Position numbers and translations under genes: made by a program. Under the pieces are notes generated by a model. The model saw only the letters and a list, made by a program, of their open reading frames with translations. It did not search any database and was not told where the DNA came from. From an uncultured Erysipelotrichaceae bacterium (GTDB lineage: Bacteria > Bacillota_I > Bacilli_A > RF39 > UBA660), in the NCBI GenBank assembly GCA_902775285.1, contig CACYLI010000001.1, positions 1-64,000 of the forward strand: a stretch of 64,000 nucleotides of DNA, in the 5' to 3' direction. Of this stretch, positions 3,854 to 53,913 are shown one piece after another (position 1 is the stretch's first letter; each line of letters begins with the position of its first letter).

Positions 3854-3930
3854 TGGTGCGCCCAAGAGGAGTCGGACCCCTAACCTTTTGATCCGTAGTC
3901 AAATGCTCTATCCAATTGAGCTATGAGCGC
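3854..3930 (-). tRNA. tRNA-Arg (ACG)
   Basis: Acceptor GCGCTCA pairs with TGGGCGC; anticodon loop CTACGGA gives ACG, read as ICG after deamination; CCA encoded. It is the last gene of the tRNA operon. Confidence 0.95.
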
Positions 3931-3950
3931 TTTATTTTATAACTTAAAAA

Positions 3951-4026
3951 TGGTGGCTTCAGTTGGAATCGAACCAACGACACCAAGATTTTCAGTCTTG
4001 TGCTCTGCCAACTGAGCTATGAAGCC
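3951..4026 (-). tRNA. tRNA-Phe (GAA)
   Basis: Acceptor GGCTTCA pairs with TGAAGCC; anticodon loop CTGAAAA; CCA encoded. Confidence 0.95.
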
Positions 4027-4029
4027 ACA

Positions 4030-4105
4030 TGGCGGTTCGTACGGGACTTGAACCCGTGATCTCTCGCGTGACAGGCGAGCGTGATAACCACTACACCAAC
4101 GAACC
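4030..4105 (-). tRNA. tRNA-Asp (GUC)
   Basis: Acceptor GGTTCGT with discriminator G; anticodon loop CTGTCAC; CCA encoded. Only 3 bases separate it from tRNA-Phe. Confidence 0.95.
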
Positions 4106-4106
4106 A

Positions 4107-4183
4107 TGGTTGCGGGAGCCGGATTTGAACCAACAACCTCTGGGTTATGAGCCCAGCGAGCTACCAGATTGCTCCATCCCGCG
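4107..4183 (-). tRNA. Initiator tRNA-fMet (CAU)
   Basis: The anticodon loop CTCATAA carries CAT. The first base C faces A at the end of the acceptor (unpaired 1-72), and the anticodon stem ends in three consecutive G-C pairs (GGG/CCC); both are initiator hallmarks. CCA encoded. Confidence 0.93.
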
Positions 4184-4196
4184 ATAATATATAAAT

Positions 4197-4289
4197 TGGC
4201 GGAGGAAAAGGGATTCGAACCCCTGCGCCGATTTCTCGACCTCCCGGTTTTCAAGACCGGTCCCTTCAACCAGACTTGGGTATTCCTCC
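4197..4289 (-). tRNA. tRNA-Ser (UGA)
   Basis: 93 bases with a long variable arm; anticodon loop CTTGAAA; acceptor GGAGGAA; CCA encoded. Confidence 0.95.
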
Positions 4290-4296
4290 AAAAAAA

Positions 4297-4385
4297 TGGT
4301 GCCCCAGGCCGGAGTCGAACCGGCACGAGCTTTTACACTCGCAGGATTTTAAGTCCTGTGCGTCTACCTATTCCGCCACTAAGGC
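4297..4385 (-). tRNA. tRNA-Leu (UAA)
   Basis: 89 bases with a long variable arm; anticodon loop CTTAAAA; acceptor GCCTTAG; CCA encoded. Confidence 0.93.
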
Positions 4386-4390
4386 ACACC

Positions 4391-4466
4391 TGGTGTCTCG
4401 CTGGGGATTTGAACCCCAGACCCCTTGATTAAAAGTCAAGTGCTCTACCGGCTGAGCTAGCGAGAC
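4391..4466 (-). tRNA. tRNA-Lys (UUU)
   Basis: Acceptor GTCTCGC pairs with GCGAGAC; anticodon loop CTTTTAA; CCA encoded. Confidence 0.95.
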
Positions 4467-4481
4467 ATATTATACAAAAAA

Positions 4482-4557
4482 TGGTTGCCTCGGCTGGATT
4501 CGAACCAGCGGAATGCAAGAGTCAAAGTCTTGTGCCTTACCACTTGGCTACGAGGCA
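4482..4557 (-). tRNA. tRNA-Gln (UUG)
   Basis: Acceptor TGCCTCG pairs with CGAGGCA; anticodon loop CTTTGAC; CCA encoded. Confidence 0.95.
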
Positions 4558-4566
4558 ATTTTCAAG

Positions 4567-4650
4567 TGGTGGAGAGAGATGGATTCGAACCATCGAACCC
4601 GAAGGAACAGATTTACAGTCTGCCGCGTTTAGCCACTTCGCTATCTCTCC
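4567..4650 (-). tRNA. tRNA-Tyr (GUA)
   Basis: 84 bases with an extended variable arm; anticodon loop CTGTAAA; acceptor GGAGAGA; CCA encoded. Confidence 0.95.
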
Positions 4651-4656
4651 ATAAAG

Positions 4657-4732
<76 letters not shown>

Positions 4733-4749
4733 GAAAAAAAATAAAATTA

Positions 4750-4826
4750 TGGTGGGCGATGAGAGACTCGAACTCCCGACCCCCTGCTTGTAAGGCAGAT
4801 GCTCTAACCAACTGAGCTAATCGCCC
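4750..4826 (-). tRNA. tRNA-Val (UAC)
   Basis: Acceptor GGGCGAT pairs with ATCGCCC; anticodon loop CTTACAA; CCA encoded. It is the first gene of the operon, about 20 bases after the predicted start point. Confidence 0.95.
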
Positions 4827-50471: not shown

Positions 50472-50481
50472 AACCTTTTTT
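50454..50481. terminator. Bidirectional terminator
   Basis: AAAAAAGGTTC (50454-50464) pairs with GAACCTTTTTT (50471-50481) around a 6-base loop between convergent genes. Confidence 0.88.
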
Positions 50482-51176
50482 TAGCATCCAGAAATATCAC
50501 AACTATTCAATGCTTCACTAACTTCTTTAATAACTGATACAAATATATCATATGTTTCTTGTTGCATTTCACTTGTAAGTTCCATATATCCATCAGTTTG
50601 TAAAGAACTAATTCCAGTAACTACATCAATTACTTTTCCATCTATAACACCAACTATATTTGGAGCATATATTCTCTTTTCATTTGTACTAATAGTATTA
50701 CCATCTTCAGTAGTTAAATTATAATCAGCTAATTTATCTTTTAGTAATTCTAGTAATTTATTATATCCACTTGTACCCTCTTTTGCTTTAACTGGTTCAT
50801 TCTTATCATTTAAAGCATATGCATCTCTTATATCTTCTACATTTACATAATATATTTTATTTATACTATATTCTTTACTTACATCAATTAATGTAGGAAG
50901 AACACTTCTACACCATGGACATGATGGAAATCCAAAATAAACAATAAATGTTTCTTTATTATTTATTGCATTTACTATATCATCTTCTGTCTTATATACA
51001 AATGGATTATTTTCATCAATATTTAATTCTCTAATAGTTTTTCCACTACTACTTTTAGTTAAATTTAAACTTTCATATTCTTTTTTAAACTTATAAGCAT
51101 CTGTATTCTTATCTTTACATCCACTTATTACTAATAAACAAATAATTAATATTAATACTATTTTACTTTTTTGCAT
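50481..51176 (-). CDS. Thioredoxin-fold lipoprotein
   Basis: A 231-residue lipoprotein (VISGC lipobox, Cys20) with a thioredoxin-like domain: FIVYFGFPSCPWCRSVLPTLIDV, with C86-P-W-C89 as redox pair, then KIYYVNVEDIRDAY and the late cis-proline-like APNIVGVIDGK. A second cysteine pair (C226, C231) ends the protein, SCDISGC. It should act on disulfides at the outer membrane face. Its start overlaps the end of the upstream CxxC protein gene by 14 bases, so the pair is co-translated. Confidence 0.82.
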   Translation of the reverse strand: MQKSKIVLILIICLLVISGCKDKNTDAYKFKKEYESLNLTKSSSGKTIRELNIDENNPFVYKTEDDIVNAINNKETFIVYFGFPSCPWCRSVLPTLIDVSKEYSINKIYYVNVEDIRDAYALNDKNEPVKAKEGTSGYNKLLELLKDKLADYNLTTEDGNTISTNEKRIYAPNIVGVIDGKVIDVVTGISSLQTDGYMELTSEMQQETYDIFVSVIKEVSEALNSCDISGC

Positions 51177-51888
51177 TTGTTCTTTTCACTACCTTTTTTT
51201 GAATAGTTGAAGTTTCTTTAGTAGTTATTTTCACATTATTCGTATTTTTTATTTCATCTAATTTTTCTAATACTTTTTGATTAGATTTGTTAACAAAATG
51301 AATAATTATAAAACTAGCTATTGCAAGTAGAATTATATTCCATATAACCATTTTAGCAGTTGTACTTAAATGATATTTAATACTATCATTATAAGCTTCA
51401 AAAACATCATATTTATCTTTACCATTATAAACATCTTCTATAGCTTGTATTATAGCATCATTATATTGTTCAGCATATCCTCCAAATACTTGTTCACCAA
51501 TTAAGATGTATGGAACTCCTCCAGCTGTCTCTCCTTTAAACGATGAAATATCATCTAATAAATTAGCATTATCTTGATTGTACCATAATTCAAATGATAC
51601 AACTTTGAAATGACTACCATATTCTTCTGATATATCATTTAAATAACTTAAAAATGATTGACAAACATGACATCCTCTTCCTCTAAATAAATAGATAGTT
51701 GCTTGTTTATCATTTTCAGAATAAGACTTGTTTTTTAATTCTATGCCTTCTTCTTCCAATGCTTGTTTAAAGTTAAGAGTTTCATATTTAGATAAATCTA
51801 TTTTTGTTCTTTCTTTCTCTTCTGCTTTTAACATAATTGGTAATAAAGCAAACATTAAAACAACTATATATGTTAATACTTTTTTCAT
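51163..51888 (-). CDS. Membrane-anchored thioredoxin/glutaredoxin-fold protein
   Basis: A 241-residue protein started at the ATG at 51888, preceded by AAGGAGGATATT (a longer frame from 51927 has no site). Signal peptide 1-22, then a thioredoxin-like domain with C73-H-V-C76 (IYLFRGRGCHVCQSFLSYL), GGVPYILIGEQVFGG (cis-Pro loop), a membrane helix at about 178-200 and a basic cytoplasmic tail. It is oriented with the redox site outside. It pairs with the following lipoprotein, suggesting a two-step thiol relay across the membrane face. Confidence 0.78.
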   Translation of the reverse strand: MKKVLTYIVVLMFALLPIMLKAEEKERTKIDLSKYETLNFKQALEEEGIELKNKSYSENDKQATIYLFRGRGCHVCQSFLSYLNDISEEYGSHFKVVSFELWYNQDNANLLDDISSFKGETAGGVPYILIGEQVFGGYAEQYNDAIIQAIEDVYNGKDKYDVFEAYNDSIKYHLSTTAKMVIWNIILLAIASFIIIHFVNKSNQKVLEKLDEIKNTNNVKITTKETSTIQKKVVKRTNAKK

Positions 51889-51935
51889 AATATCCTCCTT
51901 AGTAATATTATATAGTATTTCACTCATAAATAAAA

Positions 51936-51962: not shown

Positions 51963-53693
51963 TTATGAATTTAAAGATTCTGTTTCATATAAATTTTTAT
52001 AAATATTATTATTTTTTAATAATTCATTATGTTTACCAGAAGCCATTACTTCACCTTTATCTATTACATGTATAATATCTGCATCAATTATTGTTGATAA
52101 CCTGTGAGCAACTATAATAACAGTGTGATCTTTAACTAAATTATCAATAGACTTTTTAATATATTCTTGAGATTTATTATCAAGAGCAGATGTTGCTTCA
52201 TCTAATAATATTATTTTGCTTTTCTTAGCAAGAGTTCTTGCAATTGATAATCTTTGTTTTTGACCACCTGATAAATTCACTCCACCTTCTCCTAGAATAG
52301 TATTATACTTATTAGGCAAACTCATAATATAATCATCTAAATAAGCCATTTTTGTATACTTTCTTACTTCTTTTAAAGTTATTGTTTTATCAATCATTTT
52401 AAAGTTATCAAAAATACTTCTATTAAATATAAATGGTTCTTGTCTAATAATAGATACTTGTTTTCTAAGTTCTTCTTCATTTAAATTCTTTATGTCTATA
52501 TTATCTATTAAAATACTACCATCCACTGGATCAAATATTCTTGTAAGTAAATTAAATATAGTTGATTTTCCTTGACCAGATGCACCTACTAAAGCTATTT
52601 TTTTATTAGGTTCAATTTTTAGATTAAAACTATTTAATAATATTTTTTCTCCTGGATAACCAAATTTAACATTTTTAAAATCAATTATTCCCTTAATATC
52701 AGAAATCATTTGATTACCAAATTTTTCATCTTGATATAATCTATTTAATAATATATCATTTACTCTACTAACTGATACATATAATTTTTGATATGTTTCA
52801 CTAAATTCATTTATTTCATCAATCAACCACATAAATTTATAAACATAATATGTCATTGCTACAAAAAATGATAAAGAACAAATGCCTATATACATAAGTA
52901 TTATACAAGTTAAATATACACATACTTCTAAAGAAGTTCTAATTATTTTATTAATAATTTTATATTTTTTATAGTTATCTATTTCATTATTAGAAATATT
53001 TAAAATAGATTTTACTAATTCTTTAGCATCACTTATTAAATTATTCTTAACTCCTAAAGTTTTAATTTCTCTAATACCTCTTACAGATTCGTTTACTAAA
53101 GAAGAAAATTTATCTTGTTCTTTTTTTCTTTTTTTATGAATATCTATTAAAATTGGATTATACTTTTTAACAACAAAATATAATATTGTTACAAAAAATA
53201 CTATTTCTAGACCTACTATCCATGAATTAATAAATACATATACTATTATTATAACAGAACCAATTAATGATGAAATCATTTGAAGCAGTCTTCCAAATAC
53301 AAAACTAAGTGAATCAGCATCATTTGTTATTCTATTAATAACTTCACCAGATGAAGTTTTCTCATATGCAAATGATGGTAAATTAAGTGCTTTTTTATAT
53401 GTATTAAAACTTAGTTTTCTAGATACTTTATTTTCAATTCTTTGTAATATAGACCATGCTTTCATATTCAAAAGAATGTCTATAAAAAAATTAATGAATG
53501 CATAAATACCTAAATATATTAATGCATCTTTAATATTTAGTTTTGTTATTAATTCAACTGTTTGTCCACTTAAATAACCACCTATTGTATTACCAAGTTC
53601 AACTATTACTATAAAAATAGTAGCTAAAATAATTTTAAATTTTTCTTCTTTAAAATAATTCCAAAGAGGCTTAAATTCTTTTAATTGTTTCAT
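51963..53693 (-). CDS. ABC exporter half-transporter (permease-ATPase fusion)
   Basis: A 576-residue half transporter. Residues 1-300 contain about six membrane helices; residues 340-576 form the ATPase with Walker A GASGQGKST, signature LSGGQKQRL, Walker B IILLDEATSALD and the H-loop VAHRLST. It would act as a homodimer, or with a partner elsewhere, to export a drug, lipid or peptide. GGAGGTG precedes the ATG. A 28-codon leader ORF, an antiterminator option and an intrinsic terminator lie upstream, strongly suggesting translation-controlled induction. Confidence 0.93.
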   Translation of the reverse strand: MKQLKEFKPLWNYFKEEKFKIILATIFIVIVELGNTIGGYLSGQTVELITKLNIKDALIYLGIYAFINFFIDILLNMKAWSILQRIENKVSRKLSFNTYKKALNLPSFAYEKTSSGEVINRITNDADSLSFVFGRLLQMISSLIGSVIIIVYVFINSWIVGLEIVFFVTILYFVVKKYNPILIDIHKKRKKEQDKFSSLVNESVRGIREIKTLGVKNNLISDAKELVKSILNISNNEIDNYKKYKIINKIIRTSLEVCVYLTCIILMYIGICSLSFFVAMTYYVYKFMWLIDEINEFSETYQKLYVSVSRVNDILLNRLYQDEKFGNQMISDIKGIIDFKNVKFGYPGEKILLNSFNLKIEPNKKIALVGASGQGKSTIFNLLTRIFDPVDGSILIDNIDIKNLNEEELRKQVSIIRQEPFIFNRSIFDNFKMIDKTITLKEVRKYTKMAYLDDYIMSLPNKYNTILGEGGVNLSGGQKQRLSIARTLAKKSKIILLDEATSALDNKSQEYIKKSIDNLVKDHTVIIVAHRLSTIIDADIIHVIDKGEVMASGKHNELLKNNNIYKNLYETESLNS

Positions 53694-53708
53694 TTAAACA
53701 CCTCCTCA

Positions 53709-53733
53709 AATAAAAAGCCTACTTTTAGTAGGC
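53709..53733 (-). terminator. Attenuator (intrinsic terminator) before the ABC exporter
   Basis: GCCTAC (53733-53728 on the minus strand) pairs with GTAGGC (53722-53717) around TAAAA, then a run of five U. The exporter ribosome site follows at once. The 5' arm and adjacent bases (53727-53738) can instead pair with 53782-53793 inside the leader ORF, 11 of 12 bases. Confidence 0.85.
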
Positions 53734-53744
53734 ACAAAACGTTT

Positions 53745-53831
53745 CTAGAAAGAATGAGAAAATAATAATACCCATCTTTCATTTGTGACTACTTTAGAAT
53801 TATATGTAATTTTTGAATTTAATGTTATCAT
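53745..53831 (-). CDS. 28-codon leader peptide of the ABC exporter
   Basis: MITLNSKITY NSKVVTNERW VLLFSHSF: a complete small ORF (ATG 53831, TAG 53747-53745) with GAGGAG 8 bases upstream, too strong to be chance. It ends 7 bases before the 5' arm of the attenuator. Its codons 13-17 (K-V-V-T-N) contain the strand that can form the antiterminator, so ribosome position would decide between terminator and antiterminator. The layout equals that of bmrB upstream of the bmrCD drug exporter of Bacillus subtilis, though the peptide sequence is unrelated. The peptide itself may have no other function. Confidence 0.75.
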   Translation of the reverse strand: MITLNSKITYNSKVVTNERWVLLFSHSF

Positions 53832-53848
53832 TTTCTCCACTCCTCTCT

Positions 53849-53866
53849 CTTTAAATTCATTTAAAG
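53849..53866. repeat. Inverted repeat at the exporter transcription start
   Basis: CTTTAAAT and ATTTAAAG flank a 2-base centre between the -10 box and the leader start. It may be an operator or simply a small 5' hairpin of the leader RNA. Confidence 0.35.
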
Positions 53867-53893
53867 TTTAACACTATAAAATAAAAATGTCAA
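53865..53893 (-). promoter_or_regulatory. Promoter of the leader ORF and ABC exporter
   Basis: TTGACA (53893-53888), 17-base spacer, TAAACT (53870-53865) on the minus strand. The -35 box is part of the 3' arm of the csaA terminator, so terminator and promoter share bases. Confidence 0.7.
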
Positions 53894-53913
53894 CTATTTT
53901 TAGTTGACATTTT
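53880..53913 (-). terminator. Terminator of csaA
   Basis: A 13-bp stem (53884-53896 with 53901-53913) around TTTT with U-rich exit. Confidence 0.88.

Follow-up and report, generated by a model that had tools for sequence, protein, structure and literature searches.

The window analysed here, a stretch of 64,000 nucleotides, contains a gene for an ABC exporter half-transporter that is preceded by a short open reading frame (ORF) and an intrinsic terminator. The question raised by this locus is what decides whether transcription continues into the exporter gene. A preliminary description had proposed an architecture of leader ORF, antiterminator, and terminator before a half-ABC exporter, similar to bmrB-bmrCD, in which an early-stalled ribosome turns the exporter on. 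Its coordinates for the promoter, ORF, antiterminator, terminator, and exporter start, all on the minus strand, were found to be correct to the base. In this work, both the architecture and the logic were supported by conservation, covariation, and folding. In addition, a third helix (P1), absent from the preliminary description, was found to join 53847-53827 with 53766-53748; it is stronger than the antiterminator helix (AT) and it covaries.

Features of the locus

53888..53909, minus strand: 22-bp dyad TGTCAACTAAAAATAGTTGACA, overlapping the -35 box, with 9/9 arm match in the window
53865..53893, minus strand: sigma-70-type promoter, TTGACA-17-TAAACT with TG before the -10 box (promoter reading of the sequence)
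53837..53858, minus strand: conserved RNA 5' end GAAUUUAAAGAG and extended Shine-Dalgarno of the leader ORF; almost no variation in an alignment of 14 leaders
53827..53847, minus strand: P1 5' strand, from the leader Shine-Dalgarno to AUG+4 (duplex -17.1 kcal/mol; 0/50,000 permutations)
53745..53831, minus strand: leader ORF of 28 codons and TAG, MITLNSKITYNSKVVTNERWVLLFSHSF (ATG at 53831, TAG at 53745)
53782..53793, minus strand: b, antiterminator 5' strand, AGTAGTCACAAA, codons 13-17, pairing with d (covariation)
53748..53766, minus strand: P1 3' strand, formed by the final codons of the leader ORF, best partner of the leader ribosome-binding site (RBS) in the whole leader
53727..53738, minus strand: d, antiterminator 3' strand, TTTGTGCCTACT, overlapping the terminator 5' arm and pairing with b (covariation)
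53707..53733, minus strand: T, intrinsic terminator GCCTACT-AAA-AGTAGGC (53733-53717) followed by the U tract TTTTTATTT (terminator scan)
53701..53707, minus strand: exporter Shine-Dalgarno GAGGAGG
51963..53693, minus strand: ABC exporter half-transporter of 576 aa, ABC_membrane and ABC_tran, MsbA/P-glycoprotein type (ATG at 53693)
53664..53669, minus strand: exporter codons 9-10, CCT CTT (most relatives have CCT CTA), complementary in sequence to the Shine-Dalgarno of the exporter

Distribution of the leader and its promoter

Leaders were collected from exporter orthologs in the genus, by DNA search, and by searching 386 family genomes for the motif; further sources were 288 genomes of the order, a sample that comprised the window's family only, and 183 genomes searched for the exporter. 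In total, these searches yielded 37 leaders from 20 genera of the window's family, almost all located immediately before the orthologous ABC exporter, and one copy in the window's own genome. In the exporter tree, the leader occurs in two clades, in 15/17 and 5/9 of their members. One sequence (L123, G008:C2:43806) is a leader remnant, with a terminator that has no U tract and no exporter in the sequence beyond it. No leader was confirmed outside the family: of 346 genomes sampled across the class, about 300 belonged to other families, and in these, two unconfirmed motif matches with 2 mismatches were seen. A related-locus search on GTDB contigs returned distant ABC proteins only. No Rfam 15 family matched the leader at its gathering score; the best sub-threshold match, MicA (32.6 bits against a threshold of 41), was considered to be due to chance.

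The leader RNA begins near 53858, and the distance from its 5' end to the -35 box is identical in 36/37 leaders. The motif formed by the RNA 5' end and the Shine-Dalgarno is present with 0-2 mismatches in many genomes. The segment GAAUUUAAAGAG (53858-53847) is located 5' of the Shine-Dalgarno, outside P1, and is unpaired; its conservation across genera is that of the Shine-Dalgarno. The exporter promoter (53893-53865, minus strand) reads TTGACA-17-TGTTAAACT when written out. The arms of the dyad at its -35 box were matched at 7/9 or better in 18/36 leaders, compared with 2.3% in shuffles, and the spacer is almost always 4 in leaders with a good arm match, so it is a possible operator or promoter element. 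The dyad over the exporter -35 box, TGTCAAC-N8-GTTGACA, recurs in most leaders. The idea of an operator private to the exporter was weakened, because the same dyad also occurs, in degenerate form, at the promoter of rpsP (ribosomal protein S16) in the same genus (G000:C2:127342-127363). Upstream, a csaA-like gene has an apparent terminator at 53913-53884, and the -35 box of the exporter promoter serves as the 3' arm of this terminator. Elsewhere in the window, a dense cluster of 11 tRNA genes lies at 3857-4826 on the minus strand, with one further tRNA gene at 2135-2208.

The leader frame is kept and its peptide is not

The 28-codon ORF with a strong ribosome site, as proposed earlier, was confirmed at 53831-53745; the peptide printed for it had 20 residues. 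The small ORF is conserved among relatives: its frame is open in 30/30 leaders, compared with 0/30 for either alternative forward frame. Its length varies from 21 to 34 codons, and the differences are multiples of 3. Substitutions are about equally frequent at codon positions 1, 2, and 3, and almost every changed codon alters the amino acid. Neither an excess of synonymous change nor a shared peptide motif was found in the 30 leaders, nor a run of one amino acid of the kind that serves as regulatory codons in trp/his-type leaders. Selection keeps the frame and the length or distance, and not the peptide. Because the codon positions change alike, it is the position of the ribosome that counts. 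It had also been stated that the peptide appears undescribed, which is beside the point for a peptide that is not conserved; likewise, the conserved leader peptide of arrest leaders of the ermCL/msrDL kind was not seen here. Thus, an arrest peptide or amino-acid-specific codons can be excluded as the common mechanism.

Antiterminator and terminator

A terminator scan of 4 kb gave 2 sites against 0.2 expected. Strand b (53793-53782) forms 11/12 pairs with strand d (53738-53727), as had been described together with a terminator formed by the same bases. In the window alone, this duplex reaches z = -2.6 against shuffles. The comparative evidence for AT is far stronger than such single-sequence statistics. 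The terminator occurs with a covarying AT in 33/37 leaders, and the mean energy of own pairs in the 33 leaders was -11.35 kcal/mol, compared with -6.86 kcal/mol for cross pairs; 0/50,000 permutations reached the observed sum (z -11.4). The covariation called for between 53782-53793 and 53727-53738 is therefore present among relatives. It was also found in leaders picked via the exporter protein alone (z -7.6), with 14 representatives below 75% identity, and in leaders found after the model was set (p<=0.014 in 5/5). These tests used narrow windows on the terminator arm, as wide 80-nt windows gave no information. Strand b is located at codons 9-21 across leaders and pairs with the terminator 5' arm in every terminator-bearing leader. 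The helices are mostly of 9-17 bp, and their strands vary among leaders yet pair, for example ACAAGTGGTTT/AAGCCATTTGT in L021, GATAAGAGTTTTAAT/GTTAGACTACTCTTATT in L017, and GTTTAGTAGT/ACTACTAAAC in L136.

Helix P1 closes on the leader ribosome-binding site

In P1, the leader Shine-Dalgarno, spacer, and AUG are paired to the tail codons of their own ORF, with 18 continuous pairs in L027. The energy of own pairs was -16.44 compared with -12.65 for cross pairs (0/50,000 permutations, z -9.5), and A-U, G-C, G-U, and U-A exchanges were observed at the paired positions. As for AT, the covariation was found in leaders picked via the exporter protein alone (z -6.8), with 17 representatives below 75% identity, and in leaders outside the first set (p<0.05 in 6/6). 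P1 and AT are formed by separate strands with no shared bases, and the loops between them are 2-30 and 3-33 nt across leaders. Three leaders (L018, L030, and L152) have neither T nor the AT strand and keep the ORF, the RBS, and a strong P1. L030, which shares its exporter with L147, and L152 belong to sister exporters (support 82), and their P1 strands differ and still pair. Since P1 is kept in these terminator-less leaders, it probably has, or had, a role beyond termination, for example as a brake on translation of the leader or as protection for the 5' end of the mRNA.

Folding states and the proposed mechanism

The states of 31 leaders were folded with pseudoknots forbidden, and mean probabilities were taken. 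In free RNA, they were 0.90 for T, 0.03 for AT, and 0.87 for P1. With a ribosome at the start, covering the RBS, T was 0.43 and AT 0.49, and with a ribosome on b, T was 0.94 and AT 0.00. When the RNA extended up to d, mean AT was 0.86 with the ribosome at codons 1-3, 0.74 at codon 6, and 0.01 at codons 13-14. The same RNA with no ribosome gave AT 0.48 and P1 0.41 at equilibrium, so the untranslated off state would need P1 to form first, which it can because the ORF tail is transcribed before d. A ribosome at codons 22-27 still allowed AT in many leaders in the same folding model. For the leader in the window, AT was 0.02 in free RNA and 0.93-0.94 with a ribosome at codons 1-6; a ribosome that has reached the stop codon overlaps d in part, which again favours T. 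These states lead to a model in which the exporter would be switched on solely by a ribosome held on or close to the start.

In our view, the leader probably acts as a ribosome-mediated transcription attenuator that responds to ribosomes stalled on or close to the start codon. Comparison of the leaders showed P1, AT, T, the conservation of the frame, and the lack of conservation of the peptide, and the three states were computed; we infer in addition that P1 excludes AT, that drugs are the signal, and that the exporter, judged by its sequence, may act as a drug pump. The very strong RBS at the RNA 5' end would load ribosomes on a throw-away ORF. If no ribosome is loaded, the ORF tail would pair with the RBS as soon as it is transcribed; b would then be shut in a closed loop, AT would be hard to form, and T would terminate. 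In normal translation, ribosomes would cover b, so that T forms and the exporter stays off. A ribosome stalled on the start codon, or elsewhere within the first six or so codons, would block P1 and leave b free, and AT could therefore form ahead of synthesis of the terminator 3' arm, so that the exporter is transcribed. The exclusion of AT by P1 would be topological, as suggested by a folding model free of pseudoknots. A narrower proposal is that of a widespread sensor of start-codon stalling that does not depend on the peptide, in which a ribosome parked on the RBS prevents P1 and only thereby opens the loop for AT; we hold it tentatively, with the balance slightly against it. The predicted inducers are drugs that stall ribosomes at the start codon (lincosamides, pleuromutilins, and tetracyclines), which would act through the leader. 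The model agrees with the fall in bmrB read-through when translation of its leader is abolished (PMC4191407) and with the induction of vmlR and toiL by drugs of this type (PMC9226507; PMC12121999).

Translation signals of the exporter

Exporters associated with the leader typically start with MK.LKEFKPL, and CCTCTA was found in 19/24 leader-bearing Pro-Leu sites (codons 9-10), compared with about 3% expected from codon use. The predicted hairpin between the exporter Shine-Dalgarno and codons 9-10 exceeds synonymous recodings in most leader-bearing exporters. In isolation, the exporter Shine-Dalgarno at 53701-53707 was paired with the exporter's own codons at P = 0.99, and in the full leader it was 0.47 paired, 0.35 with its own codons. 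This predicted pairing is a possible translation layer. The suggestion that the AT state frees the exporter Shine-Dalgarno was unsupported, as mean pairing was 0.87 in both the AT and T states. The two genes directly 3' of the exporter (50481-51927) encode a weakly thioredoxin-like protein and a PedC/BrcD disulfide isomerase-like protein, in this order.

Alternative explanations

The same helices could work in the opposite sense if P1 and AT coexisted as a pseudoknot, with P1 shutting the leader RBS when loading is late and locking the exporter on, so that a scarcity of free ribosomes would be the signal. P1 covers precisely the leader RBS and leaves every base of AT free, the loops between the helices would suffice for a pseudoknot in most leaders, and P1 outlives the terminator in three of them. 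On the other hand, winding d around b in a closed loop, with d tethered to RNA polymerase, should be unfavourable for an AT of mostly 9-17 bp, and loss of leader translation lowers read-through in bmrB rather than raising it, according to the cited passages (PMC4191407). We regard this arrangement as unlikely. Much less probable is that P1 serves mainly to control translation of the leader or the stability of the mRNA; translation would then determine exporter output, and the terminator would have been added later. The terminator-less leaders with their ORF, RBS, and P1, the differing P1 sequences that still pair at the sister exporters of L030/L147 and L152, and the predicted pairing of the exporter Shine-Dalgarno with CCUCUA codons in most leader-bearing exporters would fit it. 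However, T is present with a covarying AT in 33 of the 37 leaders, and folding gave no state-dependent opening of the exporter Shine-Dalgarno.

The order of ORF, AT, and T is also that of trp-type leaders, in which specific codons, or elsewhere a nascent peptide, stall the ribosome. This explanation is largely refuted and very improbable, because the leaders have no single-residue run or shared motif and their substitutions are about equal at the three codon positions. AT-rich sequence yields many weak pairings, and chance pairing round an ordinary terminator, with no regulation, would be another reading; however, P1 and AT covary beyond every permutation, including in unbiased and out-of-sample leaders, and the comparison refutes it. 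Attenuation by start-held ribosomes is thus the reading that we prefer. If true, it would mean that a whole family of small-genome bacteria has a conserved built-in sensor that responds to ribosome stalling by activating an exporter, irrespective of the peptide that it encodes. The leader would be a clear example of an attenuator that senses the occupancy of its own RBS and would give a specific guess at the drugs these bacteria answer with efflux. Moreover, the 5' motif and the three-helix model are usable to find further members.

Comparison with known systems

In the E. coli trp leader, alternative helices are read by the position of the ribosome, and the leader-peptide RBS is reportedly occluded in the read-through RNA. 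The present leader is alike in its alternative helices, which would be read by ribosome position, here without amino-acid-specific codons. As in bmrB-bmrCD of Bacillus subtilis, a translated leader ORF and mutually exclusive antiterminator and terminator precede an ABC exporter, and read-through in that system is set by the speed of leader translation (PMC4191407, in the passages cited). According to the same passages, bmrB is 162 bp long and precedes a heterodimeric exporter, whereas the leaders here have 21-34 codons and precede a single half-transporter; the leader peptides are unrelated to bmrB and unconserved, and the passages on bmrB-bmrCD give no helix between RBS and ORF tail such as P1 (PMC4191407). 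The vmlR leader of B. subtilis shares with the model proposed here the logic of anti-antiterminator, antiterminator, and terminator set by start-codon-stalled ribosomes, and it has a further hairpin on the Shine-Dalgarno of the target gene (PMC9226507), as is predicted here for the exporter. However, vmlR has a 3-codon uORF, an anti-antiterminator that overlaps the antiterminator, and an ABC-F factor as target (PMC9226507); P1, unlike the vmlR element, has no base in common with AT, and the site on which it closes is the leader RBS. Both vmlR and toiL are induced by drugs that stall ribosomes at the start codon (PMC9226507; PMC12121999). In the toiL uORF of Escherichia coli, stalling of ribosomes by drugs of several classes activates the gene downstream; tetracycline and retapamulin stall at the start codon, and the leader RBS region changes reactivity (PMC12121999). 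toiL acts via the RBS of the downstream gene and Rho (PMC12121999), whereas the output here is an intrinsic terminator. The patAB attenuator of Streptococcus pneumoniae, where a terminator, an antiterminator, and an anti-antiterminator are predicted ahead of ABC exporter genes, is likened by description only; the cited passages report fluoroquinolones and DNA damage as inducers and describe no leader ORF (PMC4319486). The layout is thus of a known kind, that of bmrB-bmrCD and vmlR. As far as Rfam and the open-access literature were checked, they contain no description of the sequence, the peptide-independence, the host family, or the helix between RBS and ORF tail. What is new is a conserved leader family with an unusual helix that occludes its own RBS.
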